64,000 bases of DNA, from NCBI RefSeq assembly GCF_013284245.2, contig NZ_CP085876.1, forward strand, positions 3,641,001-3,705,000, in the 5' to 3' direction. The translations under genes were made by a program, and so were the position numbers. The notes below the pieces were generated by a model. It ran no database searches. It was given only the letters and a program-made list of their open reading frames with translations, and was not told the DNA's origin. Source of the stretch: Brevibacillus sp. DP1.3A (GTDB lineage Bacteria; Bacillota; Bacilli; Brevibacillales; Brevibacillaceae). This document shows positions 46,355-56,090 of this stretch, in pieces; the stretch's first letter is position 1; each line of letters opens with the position of its first letter.

Positions 46355-47710
46355 TTACTTTGAAAGCTCCCCTAATCGATGAATCACATGGCATGTACAT
46401 GAAATGCCCTGATAAAAAAGGGCCACTTTCATATTTTCATTCGGTGCATGATTCGCCTCATCTGCATTCGCATACGGGACCATCACGGATGGGACTCCGA
46501 GAATCTGGGTCCAGACATAATCGGGGAGGCTCCCGCCGACTCCAGGTACAAGAAGAGGATCTACTCTGTACGCATCTCTGACTGCCTGTGTAACCACTTT
46601 CACGATCTCCAGTTCAGCAGAAGTACGAGAAGGTTTCATATCTCCTTGATGCAAAACCTCTATGGATGGATTGTGTTTTTTCACATGTTCGCAAAGCTTT
46701 TGAAAAATATCGTCTGGGTCTTGATCGATGACTAGCCGTATATCCATTTTCACACGCGCAGTAGCAGGAATAATCGTCTTGGATCCGTCTCCCCCGTATC
46801 CACTGTGAAAGCCGCAAATATTGAAAGTCGGTTCCAAGGATACCAAGCGATAAAAGGTTTCGGCGTCCGCTTCGATATCTGGATATCCGATCTGCTCGAT
46901 TAACACCTCCCGTTCAAAAGGAAGCTTGCGAAGCAAATCCAGCTCATAGGGAGTCGGTTGGCGGATGTTATCGTAAAATCCTTCGATTAGCACCCTCCCC
47001 TGCTCATCACGCATCGTTTTTAACAAGTCAATTAGCATCCATGCCGGATTGGGTGCGATGTTTCCCATATTTCCCGAATGATGATCCCATTTTGCTCCGT
47101 GTGCTACCAGTTCGACACCAAGAATACCCCTGACACCTAACTCAACAGAAGGAATACCGCTTCCATGCATGGGCCCATCTGATGTGTAAACAAGGTCACA
47201 TGCCAATAGCTCTTTATTCTCTTCAACGAAAGTAGCGAGATGAGGACTACTGTTTTCCTCCTCCCCTTCAAGTACCAGCTTCACATTGACTGGCAACTCA
47301 CCAAAGCTGTCCAAATACGTTTGAATCGCAAGTACCTGAGCCATTAACTGACCTTTGTTGTCTCCTACTCCTCGACAATAAATCCTTCCGTCTCGTATGG
47401 TCGGTTCAAAGGGTGGCGACAGCCATTCCTCGAGCGGCTCAGGGGGCTGGACATCATAATGACCATAGATCAATACTGTGAATGCATTCTCAGCCTTTAT
47501 CCATTCTCCATATACAACAGGATGTCCCGCTGTTTCCATTAGGCGACTCTGTATCCCACATGCCTGCATCATCTCATTCAACAGCTCCGCACATTCTCGT
47601 ACGCCTACATTGGTTGTACTTATGCTTTTCTGTTTCAACAAGGCAAACAGTTGCTGTAAATAATGTTCTTTACGCTCCTCTATTAGACGCTGAACAGTAG
47701 CCAAGCTCAT
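46355..47710 (-). CDS. M20 family metallopeptidase (dipeptidase)
   Basis: 451 residues from the ATG 47710 with TAGGAGAG upstream. Di-zinc M20 landmarks: GHYDVQPP, RGVGDNKGQ, catalytic EGEEENSS, TSDGPMHG and a late His in NHAPNE. It would cleave dipeptides or short peptides in the cytoplasm. It lies 35 bp after the last gene of a peptide ABC importer and on the same strand, so it is probably the operon's processing enzyme. Its terminator is not obvious. Confidence 0.92.
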   Translation of the reverse strand: MSLATVQRLIEERKEHYLQQLFALLKQKSISTTNVGVRECAELLNEMMQACGIQSRLMETAGHPVVYGEWIKAENAFTVLIYGHYDVQPPEPLEEWLSPPFEPTIRDGRIYCRGVGDNKGQLMAQVLAIQTYLDSFGELPVNVKLVLEGEEENSSPHLATFVEENKELLACDLVYTSDGPMHGSGIPSVELGVRGILGVELVAHGAKWDHHSGNMGNIAPNPAWMLIDLLKTMRDEQGRVLIEGFYDNIRQPTPYELDLLRKLPFEREVLIEQIGYPDIEADAETFYRLVSLEPTFNICGFHSGYGGDGSKTIIPATARVKMDIRLVIDQDPDDIFQKLCEHVKKHNPSIEVLHQGDMKPSRTSAELEIVKVVTQAVRDAYRVDPLLVPGVGGSLPDYVWTQILGVPSVMVPYANADEANHAPNENMKVALFYQGISCTCHVIHRLGELSK

Positions 47711-47745
47711 GCTATATTCTCTCCTATCTATGGTTTCCTTTTTGA

Positions 47746-48711
47746 TCAGACATAGAGATGACAAGCCACACTATGTGAATCGGTCACTTGTTGCATATCT
47801 GGTCTGATTACTTTGCATATCTCCATCACATTCGGACATCTACTGGCAAAAGCGCAGCCCAGTGGAGAGTTGGCTGGTGAAGGCACGTCCCCTTGCAAAA
47901 TGATTCGTTCCTTCCTCAATCGGGGATCTGCCACTGGGATGGCGGATAACAACGTCTTGGTATAAGGGTGTAAAGGATTGGCGTACAATTGTTCCGTTGT
48001 CGCAAGCTCCGCCATTCTCCCTAAATACATGACTCCGACACGATTGCATATATGCCGAACTACCCCGAGATCATGGGAAATGAACAAGTAAGTCAGTTGA
48101 AATTCTTCTTGTAAATCCTGCATGAGATTTAAGATTTGCGACTGGATCGATACATCTAGTGCAGAGACGGGTTCATCAGCCACTACTAGCTGTGGTTGAA
48201 GAATCAGTGCACGAGCAATGCCAATTCGTTGCCGCTGCCCTCCCGAAAATTCATGAGCATACCGCTCAGCATACGTGCGATTTAACCCGCAAACCTCCAT
48301 CATATGATGTACTTTTTCCAAACGCTGATGTTCATCACCCAATCTATGGGCTTTTAGCGGCTCATCCAGAATTTCCTTTACCGTCAATCGTGGATTAAGC
48401 GACGAGAATGGATCTTGGAACACCATTTGAAAATGCTTGCGCTGTTGCCTCAGTTCACTCGCTGATAAGGAGGACAGACTCCTGCCTGCAAAGCTGATAT
48501 CCCCTGAAGTTGGTTTTATCAGTTGCAAAATCGCCCTGCCCATCGTCGATTTTCCACATCCGGATTCTCCTACTAGCCCGAGCGTCTCTCCTTGTTTAAT
48601 GGTCAAAGAAACATGATCGACGGCCTTCACTACACTCTTCGTTTTTTGCAGCAGCTTGCTCTTCCCTGGATAAAACACCTGTAACTGTTGTACTTCTACT
48701 AAAGGGTCCAT
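47746..48711 (-). CDS. Peptide ABC transporter ATP-binding protein, OppF/DppF-like
   Basis: 321 residues from the ATG 48711 with GGGAGGTG upstream; the longer frame overlaps the previous gene without a ribosome binding site. Walker [10 protein letters not shown], signature FSGGQRQR, Walker B LVVADEPVSALD, and the C-terminal oligopeptide-importer extension with the cysteine-containing block CAFASRCPNV...C that holds a Fe-S or zinc site in this family. It powers uptake with its OppD-like partner encoded 19 bp upstream. Confidence 0.94.
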   Translation of the reverse strand: MDPLVEVQQLQVFYPGKSKLLQKTKSVVKAVDHVSLTIKQGETLGLVGESGCGKSTMGRAILQLIKPTSGDISFAGRSLSSLSASELRQQRKHFQMVFQDPFSSLNPRLTVKEILDEPLKAHRLGDEHQRLEKVHHMMEVCGLNRTYAERYAHEFSGGQRQRIGIARALILQPQLVVADEPVSALDVSIQSQILNLMQDLQEEFQLTYLFISHDLGVVRHICNRVGVMYLGRMAELATTEQLYANPLHPYTKTLLSAIPVADPRLRKERIILQGDVPSPANSPLGCAFASRCPNVMEICKVIRPDMQQVTDSHSVACHLYV

Positions 48712-48730
48712 CCCAACACCTCCCGTTCTC

Positions 48731-49696
48731 CTAGGCATGTAACCAGCAGCGGCAAGTATGCTTATTGCCGACCGAAACGATCGCGGGGTCTTCCCCCCAG
48801 CAACGGTCAATAACACGATCGCACCGTTCTGCAAAGCGACAACCCTTGGTGATCGACCCTGCTGGCGGGACTTGCCCTTTGATCGTATATAAGCGGCTTC
48901 TCTTTTCTACTGAAGAGGGCATGGATTGCAGCAGACCAATGGTATAAGGATGCTTAGGATTATGGAATAAATCATCGACGTCAGCTTCTTCCACGACTTC
49001 TCCTGCATACATCACCAGAACGCGATCACACATCTCAGCGACCACCCCCAGGTCATGAGTGATTAGCATGATGGCTGTGTTTTCTTTTTCTTGCAATTTT
49101 TTCATCAGGCCTAAGATTTGCAATTGAATCGTTACGTCCAGCGCCGTTGTTGGTTCATCCGCAATCAACAGCTTTGGCTGGCATGCCATCCCAATCGCAA
49201 TCATTACCCGTTGCCGCATTCCACCCGACAATTCAAATGGATAGCTCCGGTAGATTTGCTCAGCACGGGATATACCGACGCGCTTTAGCATCTCGATGGA
49301 TTGTTCTTTTGCTTCCTGTTTGGATGCGCACGTATGCAGTAGAATAATCTCATCGATTTGTCGGCCGATCGTAAAAACAGGGTTTAAGGAGGTCATCGGC
49401 TCCTGGAAAATCATCGAGATCTCGTTTCCTCGGACCACACGCATTTCTTCCTCGGAGAGTTGGGTCAAATCCCTGTTGTTATAAACGATTTGTCCATTCG
49501 TAATGCGGCCGGGTGGGCTGATCAGGCGCATGATCGATAGGGACGTGATGCTTTTACCGCAACCGGATTCTCCAACGATCCCCAAGGTTTCACCCGCATG
49601 AACAATAAAGGAAATACCGTTAACGACAGTTATCTCTTCCATTTCTTTCTTAAAAGAAACCTGTAACTGGTTGACCTCTAAAATAGGCGTATTCAT
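48731..49696 (-). CDS. Peptide ABC transporter ATP-binding protein, OppD/DppD-like
   Basis: 321 residues. Walker [10 protein letters not shown], signature LSGGMRQR, Walker [13 protein letters not shown] and the C-terminal [15 protein letters not shown] cysteine block of the family. It lies 10 bp after the OppC-like permease gene and pairs with the OppF-like ATPase as the heterodimeric motor of a peptide importer. Confidence 0.94.
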
Positions 49697-49706
49697 TCGT
49701 TTACTT

Positions 49707-51251
49707 CTACTCCTTTAGCTTGGGATCGAGCGTGTCTCGCAGACCATCGCCAAACAAATTGAAGCAGACGACAGTCAGTACAATGGCGATCCCAGGAAAA
49801 AATGTTGGGTAGAAAAAATTCCGGCTGTTGTCTTTGGCTGCGCTCAACATCGCCCCCCATTCCGGAGCTGTTATGTCACCACCCAGACCGAGAAAGCTAA
49901 GAGCAGCACCAAGCAGAATCGCTGTACCAATTCTCATCGTCAAATAAACCATGACCACAGGAAGCATACCGGGCAAAATATGCCGTATGATAATCACAAA
50001 ATCCTGCACACCGATTGATTTAGCCGCTTCCACATACGTCATTTGCTTTAACGCTAAAGCACTCCCTCTGACGATGCGGATGAAGATGGGAACCGTAAAA
50101 ACTGCTACTGCAAAAATAATGTTAACCATCCCAGCCCCTAGCACGGCAATCACTGCGATCGCGAGCAATATCCCCGGAAACGCCAACAAAATATCGGTTA
50201 GACGCGTAATGATCGAGTCAATCCACCTTCCGTAATATCCAGCTAATAGGCCAAGCAGCGTCCCAATAACAGCACCGATCCCGACAGATACGAAACCAAT
50301 GAACAGTGTTTCACGAGTCCCAGCCAAGACACGACTGAAGATATCCCGATTTTGATGATCGGTTCCGAACCAGTGCAGTAGGGATGGCTGTTGATGTTTC
50401 CTGTTATCCATAATCGCGATATCCGTTTGATTAGGTTGGATTTGAACGAGTACAGGCTTTTGCATCGGTGTTTCAACAGCAATCGGAACAATGGTAGATA
50501 CGGGCCCGATGGATACTTTTACTTGTCCGATGCCTTGGCCTAGCGCGGTCACCACCCCATCTGGACTTACACGTATTACTTTTTCATCTGTCGATTGGTA
50601 ATGAATTTGCCCGTCTTCTTCCGATTGCTTTTTCTTAGCTGTTAAGAACCCGTTATTTTCATGAGAGTCAGTCTTACTCGCCCCCATTAATTGTTTCAGA
50701 TTGCTACGTATTTGTTCCAAACCGACCAGCTTATCACCGTTTGAAAGGGTGGCCTCCAGCTCAAGCTGTAAGATGTCCCCCTTCTTTACCTTGCCTGTCG
50801 GACCATGAAGTAGCAGCTGCGTGAGAATAGGTGGGGTGTCCTCTACAGAAACGTCGACCTGGATCTGAGTAGCGACATCTCCTTTGGCTATCAGCACGGT
50901 TGTGCTTCCTTGGCCGACTGGCGTTATGGTGATCGTGCCACTCGATTCACTGACCGAGGAAATCTGTCGGTTCGAACTTTGCAGCATAACCTCAGTCACA
51001 GGTCGTTCTGCTCCATCACTCATGATCCCGGTTATTTGAATCATTCCGGTCATATCATTCGTTCTGTCGATTCCCTTTTCCTCATACTGCTCTATTACCG
51101 GCCGATTCGGATCATATGGTGTGATCCATGGCCCTGCCAGACCTAGCAGAAAGATGCCGATTAATATCCAGAAGGCTACTACCGCCATCGTCTGTTTCTT
51201 GAACTTTTTCAAAAATAGCTGAAAGGGAGAGTGAGTATTCTGACTTTTCAT
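49707..51251 (-). CDS. OppC/DppC-like permease with extracellular Ig-like insertion
   Basis: 514 residues, about 200 more than usual for DppC/OppC. TM1 is at about 21-43, followed by PYDPN, and the family motif HWFGTDHQNRDIFSRV starts at 293. Between them lies an insertion of about 240 residues not seen in ordinary members. It contains two segments like bacterial Ig-like group 2 (BIG2) repeats: about 67-136 (TITITPVGQGSTTVLI) and about 143-260, the latter ending in STDEKVIRVSPDGVVTALGQG. The remainder is a normal permease with the EAAKSIG coupling loop. By topology the insert is outside the cell, where it could contact the binding protein, peptide or cell wall. It lies 17 bp after the OppB-like gene. 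Confidence 0.9.
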   Translation of the reverse strand: MKSQNTHSPFQLFLKKFKKQTMAVVAFWILIGIFLLGLAGPWITPYDPNRPVIEQYEEKGIDRTNDMTGMIQITGIMSDGAERPVTEVMLQSSNRQISSVSESSGTITITPVGQGSTTVLIAKGDVATQIQVDVSVEDTPPILTQLLLHGPTGKVKKGDILQLELEATLSNGDKLVGLEQIRSNLKQLMGASKTDSHENNGFLTAKKKQSEEDGQIHYQSTDEKVIRVSPDGVVTALGQGIGQVKVSIGPVSTIVPIAVETPMQKPVLVQIQPNQTDIAIMDNRKHQQPSLLHWFGTDHQNRDIFSRVLAGTRETLFIGFVSVGIGAVIGTLLGLLAGYYGRWIDSIITRLTDILLAFPGILLAIAVIAVLGAGMVNIIFAVAVFTVPIFIRIVRGSALALKQMTYVEAAKSIGVQDFVIIIRHILPGMLPVVMVYLTMRIGTAILLGAALSFLGLGGDITAPEWGAMLSAAKDNSRNFFYPTFFPGIAIVLTVVCFNLFGDGLRDTLDPKLKE

Positions 51252-51268
51252 TCGTCTGCTCCTCTTTG

Positions 51269-52189
51269 TTATTCATAACGTATTTGCGGATTCACAAGAC
51301 TGTAGCTGATATCTACAAGAAGATTGACGATGAGAAACTGGACGGAAAAGAGCAGAATGAGCGCTTGCATGGCCGGATAATCGCGAGCGAGAACGGAATC
51401 AATCAAATACGATCCCAGCCCTGGCCAGGCAAAAACTTGCTCAACTACGACTGCTCCTCCAAGCAAAAAGCCAAATTGCAACCCAGTCATCGTGATCACG
51501 GGAATCAGCGCATTACGCAATACATGCGTCCAAATGATGACTGACTCTCGCTGCCCTTTTGCCTTGGCTGTGCGTACAAAATCTTCCTGTAATACTTCAA
51601 GGACACTGGAGCGTGTAAAGCGGGCAATGATCGCAGACACTCCGAATCCTAGTGTTATCGACGGAAGCAGAAGGTGCGCAAAGGTTCCGCTGCCACTGGT
51701 TGGGAACCACCCCAACTGCACGGCAAACATTTGCATGAGCATGAGTCCGAACCAAAACTCCGGAATGCTAATGATCGTCGTGGTTGAGATAATCCCGATG
51801 CGATCCCAAATCGACTTGCGCCGAGCCGCTGAATAAATTCCGACAACCAGGCCTATAATCAGCGCCCAGAACATGGCGGCAAACGTTAATCCAAGCGTGT
51901 ATAAGAACCGCTTACCGATCTCGTCAGACACATTGGTCTTTGTTTTATAGGAAACACCGAAATCGCCGGACAAAATTTGCTGAAGATAACGACCGTACTG
52001 CACATAGAGTGGATCATGAAAGCCTAGATTCGCTTTTACTTTCTCATAGGTGGCCATATCCATTTCCGCACCGTACATGATGCGGATCGGGTCGCCAGGG
52101 GTAAGATGTACGAACAAAAAAGAAAGGATCGAGATGATCACTAAAATGGGAATCATGCCCAATATGCGACCAAAAATATATCTAGACAT
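51269..52189 (-). CDS. Peptide ABC transporter permease, OppB/DppB-like
   Basis: 306 residues, normal length. Six membrane helices, the N-terminal FVHLTPGDPIRIMYG motif of DppB/OppB proteins and the cytoplasmic coupling loop ...DFVRTAKAKGQ. It forms the membrane channel with the OppC-like protein. It lies 29 bp after the binding-protein gene. Confidence 0.95.
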   Translation of the reverse strand: MSRYIFGRILGMIPILVIISILSFLFVHLTPGDPIRIMYGAEMDMATYEKVKANLGFHDPLYVQYGRYLQQILSGDFGVSYKTKTNVSDEIGKRFLYTLGLTFAAMFWALIIGLVVGIYSAARRKSIWDRIGIISTTTIISIPEFWFGLMLMQMFAVQLGWFPTSGSGTFAHLLLPSITLGFGVSAIIARFTRSSVLEVLQEDFVRTAKAKGQRESVIIWTHVLRNALIPVITMTGLQFGFLLGGAVVVEQVFAWPGLGSYLIDSVLARDYPAMQALILLFSVQFLIVNLLVDISYSLVNPQIRYE

Positions 52190-52218
52190 TTCCTACACCT
52201 TCTCTTTAGAAAACTAAC

Positions 52219-53835
52219 TTATTGTTTGTATGCAGCCTGGAGACGAACTGTATCAAGAGTAACCCCAACATCCAAGACATTTTTCCGTTTTGCGATCACC
52301 ACATCCGGGACGTACAGGAATATCCATGGAGCCTCATCCATGATAACTTTTTGTGCTTCGATGTATTTTTTCTGTGCCATGCTGTTGTCCGTTGCTTTTA
52401 ATGCTTCATTTAGCAGCTGATCGACTTGTTGGTTCTGATAATAGCCAGAGTTATTATAGTTCGGTGGAATTCTGTCAGAGGCAAAGTTTGGTCTCATTCC
52501 CCAATCCGCTTCCGCTGTACCCGTACCCCATCGCCCGATATAGAGATCCGTTCCCTCTCCGGCATCCAGCCTTTCAAATATCGTGCCGCTCTCGTAAGCT
52601 TGCACCTCTACTTTGATCCCTACAGCTTGTAGCTGCATCTTGATATTTTCAGCAATCGCGACGAATTCCGTTGAATTGCGCGTCCACAACGTAGCTGCGA
52701 AACCATCTGGATAACCCGCTTCCGTCAATAGTTGTTTCGCTTTGTCAACGTTGTACGGATAGCCTTGCTGTTTCGCGTAGCCTTTCACCAATGGCGAAAG
52801 CGGTGAGTCGGCAGCTGTGCCATATCCGTCAGCAACCTGACTAATCAACTGTTCTTTGTTTATCGCGTAGTTCATCGCCTGACGCACACGCTTGTCCTTG
52901 TACTTATCCAGCTTTGTATTCATACCGACATAAATCATATTGAGCGATGGACCAGAGTAAACATCCAGATTCGCGTCTTTCCCTATCGTTCGTGCATCCA
53001 GTGTCGGCAAACTTGTCACGATGTCTACTTCTCCAACTTTTAGCATATTGACCCTCGTACTCGCCTCCGTCACAGGCTTAAACAGAATCGCTGCTAGCTT
53101 TGCCGGTTTCTCTTTATCCCAGTAACCATCAAAAGCAACTACCTTCACAAACTGCCCGTTCTTCCATTCGAGGAATTGATACGGCCCAGTACCCACTGGA
53201 TTCCGGTCCAAATTGTATTTCGGATCATCGATCTTTTTTTGCAATTCTTTCAGCGATTTAAAGCTGGCTGAAGGATGTGCCATATAGGCTACCATCGCTG
53301 AGTTGGGTTCGTTCGCCGTAACCGTTATCGTGTACGGGTCTACGACGGTAACCTCCTTGATAAATCCAAAGAAGCTCGCTCTTGCCATGCCATTCTCCTT
53401 GTTGCGTACGTAATCCAGATTCTTTTTCACTACTTCTGCATCAAAGGGTGAACCGTCATGAAAAAAGATTCCTTTGCGTAAATGAAAAGTCAGAGAAGTT
53501 GCATCAGCGCTTAATTTGTAATCGGTTGCAAGTATAGGGACAACCTCCCCATTTTCATCCAGCGTAAGCAGTCCTTCGAACATCGTGGACAAAATGTGTA
53601 GCGTGTTGCTATCCGTGGAATTCCAAGGATCAAGTGAGGTGGCCTCCGCTTCAAGAGCCACTATTAATTCCGCATTTCGTACTGCCTTTGCTGGTACTTC
53701 TTGTTGTTGAGCATTTCCAGGCGCTGGTCCGCTTGTTGGCGGGGGTTGACCAGAATTGCTCGTACAGGCAGATAGCATGGCTGTTGCCATCAAAAAGCTG
53801 ACTGTGAGTAAGCTCACTCTTCTTCTCATCTGCAC
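52219..53835 (-). CDS. Peptide ABC transporter substrate-binding lipoprotein, OppA/GsiB-like
   Basis: 538 residues from a GTG with GGGAGAG at 8 nt; an ATG two codons later is an alternative. Signal peptide with lipobox LSAC, a short Pro/Gly-rich linker, then a family 5 solute-binding protein (LDPWNSTDSNTLHILSTMFEGL, VKKNLDYV, VGTGPY, VRQAMNYAINKE). Captures peptides outside the cell for the OppBC permease. First gene of an operon with permeases, ATPases and an M20 peptidase, under a sigma-54 promoter. Actual ligand unknown; sequence style is close to dipeptide/glutathione-type binding proteins. Confidence 0.94.
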   Translation of the reverse strand: MQMRRRVSLLTVSFLMATAMLSACTSNSGQPPPTSGPAPGNAQQQEVPAKAVRNAELIVALEAEATSLDPWNSTDSNTLHILSTMFEGLLTLDENGEVVPILATDYKLSADATSLTFHLRKGIFFHDGSPFDAEVVKKNLDYVRNKENGMARASFFGFIKEVTVVDPYTITVTANEPNSAMVAYMAHPSASFKSLKELQKKIDDPKYNLDRNPVGTGPYQFLEWKNGQFVKVVAFDGYWDKEKPAKLAAILFKPVTEASTRVNMLKVGEVDIVTSLPTLDARTIGKDANLDVYSGPSLNMIYVGMNTKLDKYKDKRVRQAMNYAINKEQLISQVADGYGTAADSPLSPLVKGYAKQQGYPYNVDKAKQLLTEAGYPDGFAATLWTRNSTEFVAIAENIKMQLQAVGIKVEVQAYESGTIFERLDAGEGTDLYIGRWGTGTAEADWGMRPNFASDRIPPNYNNSGYYQNQQVDQLLNEALKATDNSMAQKKYIEAQKVIMDEAPWIFLYVPDVVIAKRKNVLDVGVTLDTVRLQAAYKQ

Positions 53836-53883
53836 GTAAATCTCTCCCCTTTCTATCAATGAAGTGAAACTACTGAATTAATT

Positions 53884-53899
53884 AGCATGATCTATGCCA
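53884..53899 (-). promoter_or_regulatory. Sigma-54 (-24/-12) promoter of the peptide importer operon
   Basis: The minus strand reads TGGCATAGATCATGCT, matching TGGCAC-N5-TTGCW with the essential GG (53897-53898) and GC (53885-53886) at correct spacing. It is 49 bp upstream of the binding-protein start. A sigma-54 activator gene is divergent next to it. Confidence 0.78.
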
Positions 53900-54074: not shown

Positions 54075-56090
54075 ATGATGAACGAATTCATTTTACTAGC
54101 TGGCAGCAAAGACACCCGAATCGCGCTTGTCAATCAACTTCAGGAGGTTATGGACGGGTATGTGCGGATGAGTAGTTATTCCGTCGAGGAGGAGCTTCCA
54201 ACATCCCTTCATAATCAATTGGTCGTCCTCTCCCACCCGCTCGTATTAGAAGAGCCAAAAATAAGAGCATGCCTTGGAACAAATTGCAAGCTCATCATCG
54301 CCAATAGGATCATCAATTACGAAAACATCGACAGGCTCTTATACTTACCAGCTGGAACCAAAGCTTATTACGTCAATGACTCCTTAGAAACATGTTTGGA
54401 GTCCATTGAATCACTGAAAAAGCTGGGGATTGACCACATTCATTACATACCGTATTATCCCGGCATTCCGCACGTAGAAAAAATTGATCTCGCAGTGACA
54501 CCAGGGGCGTTCGAGCTAATCCCTGACCATGTTCAAGATGTAGTGAGTATCGGTCCCCGCCTGATGGACATCTCGACGATTCATCAAATACTCGACCATT
54601 TCCAACTGAACGGGCCAGGAGATGTGATCTCTCAGCGCTATTTGCGTAAAATCATTCAATTGAGCAAGCGGCTGGCTGATGCCAACCAGATCGCCACAGA
54701 TTTGAATAAGCATTTGAATGAGGTGCTGGATGGCGTAAACGACGGGATCTTGACAATTACGCAAGATGGCAAGATCACGGTCTTCAATGAGGAGCTCGGC
54801 CTTCTGCTCGGTGTCTCTGCCAAGCGTGTTATTGGCAGACATATTCGTGATGTCATGGATCATCCTGAGCTCATCGACTTTTTATTTGCCCTCTCACAGG
54901 AAGAGGATCGCTGGTTTACGTTCGGTGAGGTTGAAGTCATTGTTCACCGCTTCCCTTTAAACAATGACCAATCACTCGTCGCTACGTTCAAGAATGCGAG
55001 AAAGACAATCGAGTTGGAAAGATCGCTGCGCTCCGAATTGAAAAAGAAAGGCTTTGTGGCCAAATACACATTTGACGATATGATTGGGGAAAGCTCAATC
55101 CTCACGCGCACAAAGGAAAAGGCAAAAAAACTGGCAAAAACAGACCTCACCCTCCTGATCCAAGGAGAGAGCGGCACGGGCAAGGAACTTTTTGCGAGTG
55201 CCATCCACAACGCATCGCTGCGGGATAAGAGGCCTTTTCTCGCTGTCAATTTCAGCGCCATTTCTGAGGATTTGATGGAAAGCGAGCTGTTCGGCTATGA
55301 TGACGGTGCATTCACAGGGGCTAAAAAAGGTGGAAAAGTTGGCTTGTTCGAGCAAGCAAACGGCGGCACGATCTTTTTGGACGAAATCGGTGACAGTAGC
55401 CTGAAGCTACAGGCACGACTTCTGCGGGTCCTGCAGGAAAAAGAGATTATGCGCATCGGGGGAAGCCAAATCATTCCAATCGATGTTCGGATCATTGCTG
55501 CCACTAACAAAAATTTGCTGCATATGATCGAACAAGGGACTTTTCGGGAAGATTTGTATCATCGGCTACGTGTTCTCTTTGTCGATCTCCCCTCCCTGCG
55601 AACTCGAACCGATGACATCCCGCTGCTCGTTCGGCATTTTATCCGACAAAGCGTACACCCACAAGTGACTATCAAGCCGGAAGTCATCGAGAGGCTCACT
55701 ACCCTACCGTGGTTTGGAAATGTGCGGGAGTTAAAGAACACCATCGATTACATGCTGGCTGTCTGTGACGAGGATATCATCCAAATTGAGGACATGCCGT
55801 GGGAAAATAGCTTTTTAAAAAGCGATCATTCACATACCGAAGCGCCGGTCATTCCTGATGAAGAAGACGAGCTGCTGCTTATCTTACGGAGTATTCAAAC
55901 CATCGCTGAACGTGGCGAAAGGCCAAATCGACGGAAAATAACTGAAATGAGCACAGATTGGGCAAAGCCACTGAGCGAGCAGCAGATTCGCAGCCGATTG
56001 GATGTGCTGGAATCGAGAGGATATATTGTGAAAAGCCGAGGGCCTTTTGGGACGAGGTTAACCGAAGCTGGATTAAGGGTATTGAAATAA
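54075..56090 (+). CDS. Sigma-54-dependent transcriptional activator
   Basis: 671 residues. About 1-190: an N-terminal sensor region I cannot name. About 195-310: a PAS domain (VLDGVNDGILTITQDGKITVFNEE). About 335-570: AAA+ domain with Walker A GESGTGKE near 364, the sigma-54 contact loop GAFTGA near 412 and Walker B GGTIFLDE. C-terminus: not a Fis-type helix-turn-helix but a winged-helix-like segment (QQIRSRLDVLESRGYIV). Divergent from the peptide importer, which has a matching sigma-54 promoter, so it is its probable activator, responding to an intracellular ligand. Start at the first of two ATGs with GAGGAAGG upstream. Confidence 0.93.
   Translation: MMNEFILLAGSKDTRIALVNQLQEVMDGYVRMSSYSVEEELPTSLHNQLVVLSHPLVLEEPKIRACLGTNCKLIIANRIINYENIDRLLYLPAGTKAYYVNDSLETCLESIESLKKLGIDHIHYIPYYPGIPHVEKIDLAVTPGAFELIPDHVQDVVSIGPRLMDISTIHQILDHFQLNGPGDVISQRYLRKIIQLSKRLADANQIATDLNKHLNEVLDGVNDGILTITQDGKITVFNEELGLLLGVSAKRVIGRHIRDVMDHPELIDFLFALSQEEDRWFTFGEVEVIVHRFPLNNDQSLVATFKNARKTIELERSLRSELKKKGFVAKYTFDDMIGESSILTRTKEKAKKLAKTDLTLLIQGESGTGKELFASAIHNASLRDKRPFLAVNFSAISEDLMESELFGYDDGAFTGAKKGGKVGLFEQANGGTIFLDEIGDSSLKLQARLLRVLQEKEIMRIGGSQIIPIDVRIIAATNKNLLHMIEQGTFREDLYHRLRVLFVDLPSLRTRTDDIPLLVRHFIRQSVHPQVTIKPEVIERLTTLPWFGNVRELKNTIDYMLAVCDEDIIQIEDMPWENSFLKSDHSHTEAPVIPDEEDELLLILRSIQTIAERGERPNRRKITEMSTDWAKPLSEQQIRSRLDVLESRGYIVKSRGPFGTRLTEAGLRVLK

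Follow-up and report, generated by a model that had tools for sequence, protein, structure and literature searches.

Permeases of the OppC/DppC type customarily, though not by strict definition, combine a short TM1-TM2 linker with a chain of about 300 aa, and the locus described here raises the question of what such a protein would do with two immunoglobulin (Ig)-like domains inserted into that linker. The locus lies in a stretch of 64,000 nucleotides from the genome of Brevibacillus sp. DP1.3A, analysed as a whole and called the window below. The open reading frame at 49707-51251 reads from the minus strand, begins with ATG and encodes 514 aa; AAAGAGGAG stands upstream of it. The gene, its parts and its neighbours are listed in window coordinates.

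49707..51251, minus strand: OppC/DppC-type permease of 514 aa carrying a tandem Ig-like insert (Pfam and ORF)
51120..51251, minus strand: N-terminus and TM1, residues 1-44 (OppC_N)
50373..51119, minus strand: TM1-TM2 loop holding the insert, residues 45-293
51069..51119, minus strand: N-terminal insert root PxDPxRPVTxQYxxKGI, residues 45-61, near-invariant (20-sequence alignment)
50850..51047, minus strand: probable first Ig-like (Big) domain, about residues 69-134 (predicted strands and LigA match)
50475..50825, minus strand: predicted second Ig-like (Big_2-like) domain, about residues 143-259 (Pfam and predicted fold)
50613..50684, minus strand: length-variable, low-confidence loop of the second domain, residues 190-213, with an NGF motif at 200-202
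50343..50399, minus strand: C-terminal root KHQxPSxxHxFGTDHQNRD, residues 285-303 (alignment)
49710..50372, minus strand: permease core TM2-TM6, residues 294-514 (DppC structure match)
51269..52189, minus strand: OppB/DppB-type permease (profile match)
52219..53859, minus strand: substrate-binding lipoprotein, SBP (SBP_bac_5, GsiB-like, lipobox LSAC)
48731..49696, minus strand: ATPase D
47746..48834, minus strand: ATPase F, whose true start probably lies downstream of the listed one
46355..47764, minus strand: M20-family dipeptidase
54075..56090, plus strand: divergent sigma-54-dependent activator (PAS and AAA+)
53884..53899, minus strand: probable sigma-54 -24/-12 element ahead of the SBP gene, TGGCAT-N5-ATGCT

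The permease has the domains and fold of the OppC/DppC type, in agreement with the first-pass annotation, which had called it OppC-like: OppC_N covers residues 8-49, BPD_transp_1 covers residues 330-513, and the core superimposes on DppC of Escherichia coli (8z1w; TMt 0.76, rmsd 1.4, 40% identity). That annotation had also proposed an insertion of about 240 residues between TM1 and an HWFGTD motif, and the size holds: the segment from PYDP (residue 45) to H293 spans 249 residues, some 230 of them extra, against a linker of 20-22 residues in 56 of 57 insert-less homologues. In the remaining homologue, a 363-aa OppC-type protein from Bacteroidota (L090 5605-6696), this loop holds a different and shorter insertion, nearly 100 residues long. 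Despite the long linker we count the Brevibacillus protein as an OppC/DppC variant because its fold and operon are those of the type, with an SBP_bac_5 protein, a second permease and two ATPases all present. Its C-terminal root reads HQNRD in place of the usual xxGRD. Five K/R and not a single D/E lie in residues 1-22, while the insert is free of cysteine and of any TM-like stretch; this charge distribution and the lack of a membrane-spanning segment fit an extracellular insert, as had been supposed.

Two Ig-like segments had been read from the sequence, and a check against BIG2 profiles suggested, with a divided outcome: Big_2 scores 24.3 bits on the insert scanned alone, above the Pfam gathering score of 22.8 and for the second segment only, and 21.2 bits on the full-length permease, below it. 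Among 12 inserts scanned with Pfam (E <= 0.01), the Big-like family PF22359 matches 11 and Big_2 matches 9. No Pfam match to the first segment was found in the insert or the full protein, and its phmmer matches, to LigA (insert residues 23-87, E 0.006) and to a teneurin-like protein (E 0.0014), are both weak. An AlphaFold model of the insert alone (mean pLDDT 75.4, pTM 0.70, from 6 sequences) has a predicted Ig fold, with LigA (E 4.3e-8, 210 columns) and SbsC as the best Foldseek matches in the PDB and S-layer domains of SbsC and Sap beside LigA at the top. A structure prediction devoid of an Ig fold had been named at first pass as a refuting outcome, and it did not occur. VIA-align superimposes the second domain on LigA with Z 8.5 and an rmsd of 1.9 over 87 residues; its matches cover mainly insert residues 94-218 and barely probe the first domain. 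The second Ig-like (Big) domain is thus a well-supported prediction, and the first less so, being drawn from the two-domain Foldseek match and the weak phmmer matches. In the whole-permease model (mean pLDDT 78.0, from 14 sequences) pTM is just 0.55, so that the direction of the arm is not fixed by the model.

The insert proved uncommon, and it travels with one kind of core. An assembly artefact or frame fusion, already doubted at first pass, is ruled out because independent genomes share the architecture: in total, 23 of the searched genomes carry the insert in an unbroken frame, at 26 loci. We counted carriers relative to the genus, order, class and phylum of the source genome (Brevibacillus, Brevibacillales, Bacilli and Bacillota). 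They make up 8 of 26 genomes of the genus, 10 of 39 of the order (13 loci), 12 of 199 of another order of the class and 1 of 13 searched in another class of the phylum; evenly drawn samples gave 9/398 genomes for the class (full-length matches) and 2/398 for the phylum. Another family of the class (that of G041), a group without a positive control, gave 0/197, and the plasmids searched had no match. Named carriers are Brevibacillus fortis, B. reuszeri (two), B. fluminis and B. massiliensis. The Brevibacillus group also gave weak insert matches within frames ranging from hundreds of residues to 4,000 aa; by frame length and partial coverage these were taken for unconnected proteins with Ig-like repeats. 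Several long betaproteobacterial frames (L037, L040, L078, L080, L083, L085 and L092; 487-787 aa) have normal linkers of 21-22 residues.

Whether insert and core travel together was asked with core-only searches of the home order and the second order. All 13 matches at 82-100% identity in the former and all 12 at 80-83% in the latter are open frames of 507-691 aa, and no insert-less version of a core at least 80% identical occurs among these 25. Core matches at 51-61% identity (42 in the second order and 19 in the home order among the matches listed) are 296-376 aa long and have no insert, and 16 further OppC-type permeases of the source genome (277-339 aa; weaker matches not counted) have none either. 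The paralogues, the core searches and the 57 insert-less homologues rule out a general OppC feature, an outcome that had been named as fatal to the original reading. The insert is the mark of one old importer subfamily. A tree built from core and OppB, rooted against three outgroups, puts the insert-bearing permeases on a long stem, and within them the focal clade (the window with L147, L150, L152 and L153; named L031-L034) separates from the rest with 100% support; deeper branches have 21-42%, so that a 'cyanophycin first' order of events is only plausible.

Among known systems, the solved E. coli DppABCDF and Mycobacterium tuberculosis DppABCD and OppABCD share the permease fold and operon make-up, and their chains (287-302 aa) are without an Ig arm, unlike the 514-aa permease. 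The best-scoring NCBIfam models for the SBP, B and C subunits are those of the glutathione importer GsiB/GsiC/GsiD, all scoring under the curated cut-offs (permease against GsiD, NF011662: 344.5 vs 484 bits); GsiD-like betaproteobacterial homologues have no insert. The inserted domains share their predicted fold with the Big_2 repeats of LigA/LigB and with SbsC and Sap, which are surface or adhesion proteins, whereas those of the permease lie within a transport protein. No published description of such an insert was found, judging by titles and the beginnings of abstracts, and literature on the combination of MalF, P2 and an Ig-type insert yielded nothing; in the part of a Bacillus subtilis ABC transporter survey available (PMC11466899), the words 'Ig-like' and 'immunoglobulin' do not occur. 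The insert-bearing permease is thus genuine and conserved, an uncommon form of a familiar kind of importer, without a description in the literature found. Its architecture, conservation, place in a single subfamily and operon context were all computed in this analysis.

One explanation for the insert, already offered at first pass as an alternative to docking of the lipoprotein, is that the arm binds the cell wall or S-layer and so fixes the importer in the envelope below the point where peptides arrive. S-layer domains of SbsC and Sap are among the top matches and Brevibacillus possesses S-layers; against this, Big domains are generic modules, Pfam found no SLH, LysM or SH3 wall-binding domain in the permease, and the insert is present in other families of the phylum too. 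We consider wall anchoring improbable.

The order SBP-B-C-D-F recurs in all 18 fetched loci; in L139 (9870-11489) the SBP is broken into two frames of 118 and 400 aa, which may reflect a pseudogene or an error in the sequence. A sigma-54 activator lies near the operon in 16 of the 18 (L143 has none and L145 ends at the contig end). The region ahead of the SBP gene was scanned for TGGCAC-N5-TTGCW in the window and in 17 fetched loci, all but L145. Of these 18 loci, the element is exact in eight, with one mismatch in three, two in four (including the window), three in two and four in one (L150, where only a short stretch was scanned). On the opposite strand of the same loci none is exact and the best has two mismatches. 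The window form, TGGCAT-N5-ATGCT, occurs once in the window against 0.03 expected.

The enzymes encoded beside the importer differ between clades. Focal-clade loci carry the M20 dipeptidase; among the 14 non-focal fetched loci, nine have a cyanophycinase match, six an IadA match and 13 at least one of the two. Two of these cyanophycinase matches are long proteins of 928 and 897 aa (L137 11358-14144 and L138 2654-5347), the latter under the TIGR02069 cut-off, and in L138 the S51 part begins near residue 490, behind a long N-terminal part. Of the 39 genomes of the order, 7 encode a cyanophycinase that scores above the cut-off; these are precisely the genomes that have a non-focal insert permease, and the two genes share an operon. 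Cyanophycin utilization loci combining cyanophycinase, isoaspartyl dipeptidase and a transporter are described in the part of PMC10206079 consulted; sister clades of the insert-bearing importer lie in such loci, from which the focal locus differs in having the M20 dipeptidase instead. Most likely, the sister-clade importer takes up beta-Asp dipeptides released from cyanophycin, and the focal importer brings in dipeptides that are cleaved inside by the M20 enzyme. The focal genome has no cyanophycinase match (E <= 0.001) and no match to the isoaspartyl dipeptidase IadA, so we leave its substrate as a dipeptide of unspecified kind; a beta-linked one would be a guess. An Asparaginase_II (PF06089) gene adjoins the secreted cyanophycinase in L144, L145, L146, L148, L149, L151 and L142, that is, in the clade-B operons and one deeper operon. 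Because IadA is absent from all seven cyanophycinase genomes of the order, Asparaginase_II is a candidate for the isoaspartyl dipeptidase of Firmicutes, an enzyme termed undiscovered in the same excerpt of PMC10206079. The first-pass annotation, right about the architecture, had overlooked the strand and the old subfamily that the insert defines, as well as sigma-54 control of the operon and the connection of the sister clades with cyanophycin.

A further possible role is recruitment: the arm would bring the secreted cyanophycinase, or cyanophycin, to the importer, whose mouth would then capture the dipeptides as they are released. The perfect coincidence of enzyme and non-focal insert permease in the seven genomes speaks for it; yet an arm is present in the focal genome and its close relatives G006 and G013, none of which yields a cyanophycinase match, and 5 of the 14 non-focal loci are likewise without one. 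We give recruitment little credence.

Insert and core evolve at very different rates. Between the focal proteins and those of other clades, identity is highest for the core (77-84%), followed by OppB (63-74%) and the binding protein (49-55%), and drops to 30-36% for the insert. Omega is 0.16-0.28 for the insert vs 0-0.03 for the core (ten pairs with unsaturated dS; an eleventh was saturated), and values well under 1 place the insert under purifying, though loose, selection. Root residues P45, V52, Q55, Y56, G60, K285, H286, Q287, P289, S290 and H293 are identical in 20/20 sequences. A [N/D/S/G]GF motif (G201 in 20/20, F202 in 19/20) sits in a stretch of variable length with pLDDT < 50, and this flexible loop might be a contact motif. 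A passive role, with the insert tolerated as a spacer or shield and binding no specific partner, would suit its very loose constraint relative to the core, but is decidedly unlikely given 0/25 cores without it, the low omega and the conserved roots and GF motif.

One comparison within the focal clade bears on a partner. The window and G006 (L152) share 99.1% identity in OppB and 98.8% in the core, but only 94.5% across the SBP and 87.4% across the insert; dS is 0.03 in OppB and 0.05 in the core against 0.21 in the first domain, 0.40 in the second and 0.35 in SBP residues 201-400. The operon (46355-53859) is thus a mosaic relative to G006, with insert and mid-SBP far more diverged, also synonymously, than the near-identical OppB and core around them. 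This contrast implies that the insert and the SBP middle have a history unlike that of the segments between them, as if both had been exchanged, or spared, together. Three other close pairs, G020/G021 (both copies) and G021/G024, have no comparable dS excess; the mosaic is that of one genome pair only.

We favour the reading in which the insert is a putative docking arm for the lipoprotein SBP, placed next to the outer gate, similar in action to MalF-P2 and probably of independent origin; docking had been proposed at first pass too, and the evidence leaves it about evenly balanced. The operon encodes a type I peptide importer made of the lipoprotein SBP, OppB, OppC and two ATPases, probably switched on by the sigma-54 activator, with the tandem-Ig outer arm on OppC. 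Held by its conserved roots, the arm would flank the gate on the side of the C subunit, across from where the DppB scoop approaches the SBP; it would catch and orient the membrane-tethered SBP above the gate, with the GF-bearing loop as a candidate contact, and substrate would be passed on with less loss. Like this arm, MalF-P2 is a large extracytoplasmic region on one permease subunit with an Ig-like fold; it is a single domain in a different loop, and MalF differs in belonging to another permease family and to a Gram-negative system. No MalF chain is among the matches listed by Foldseek, VIA-align or phmmer, an absence that is not proof. MalF-P2 comprises residues 91-271 and contacts MalE, as stated in the part of PMC3150292 consulted. 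In E. coli DppABCDF, as the available part of PMC12136057 describes it, the SBP caps DppB and DppC, a scoop between TM1 and TM2 of DppB enters the SBP cleft, and DppC is unlike DppB in this region; the scoop motif that meets DppA is that of DppB. OppB of the window aligns with TM1 and the scoop region of DppB. As the arm is placed in the C-subunit counterpart of the scoop loop, it may be expected beside the docked SBP.

Docking is favoured by the linkage of core and insert, the insert omega, the conserved roots and GF motif, the predicted Ig fold and the dS excess between window and G006 in both extracellular parts, insert and SBP residues 201-400; DppB scoop/DppA and MalF-P2/MalE offer precedents by analogy. 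Against it, the insert (30-36% identity vs 49-55% for the SBP) changes faster than would be expected of an all-interface surface, the mosaic is from a single genome pair, and the 16 OppC paralogues of the source genome, presumably also paired with lipoprotein binding proteins, manage without an arm. A broader proposal, rather unlikely as a whole, would have an independent tandem-Ig docking arm define a sigma-54-controlled subfamily for beta-linked (cyanophycin-type) dipeptides, with arm and SBP co-adapting and recombining together and the focal clade re-purposed by an enzyme swap.

Extracytoplasmic docking devices on type I importers are already known from MalF and from the scoop motif of DppB, and the tandem-Ig arm on OppC, if docking is true, would be a further independent way to hold a tethered SBP over the gate. 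The same operons propose a cyanophycin-dipeptide importer in Firmicutes, and they offer a candidate for the isoaspartyl dipeptidase which, in the part of PMC10206079 consulted, is still termed undiscovered there.
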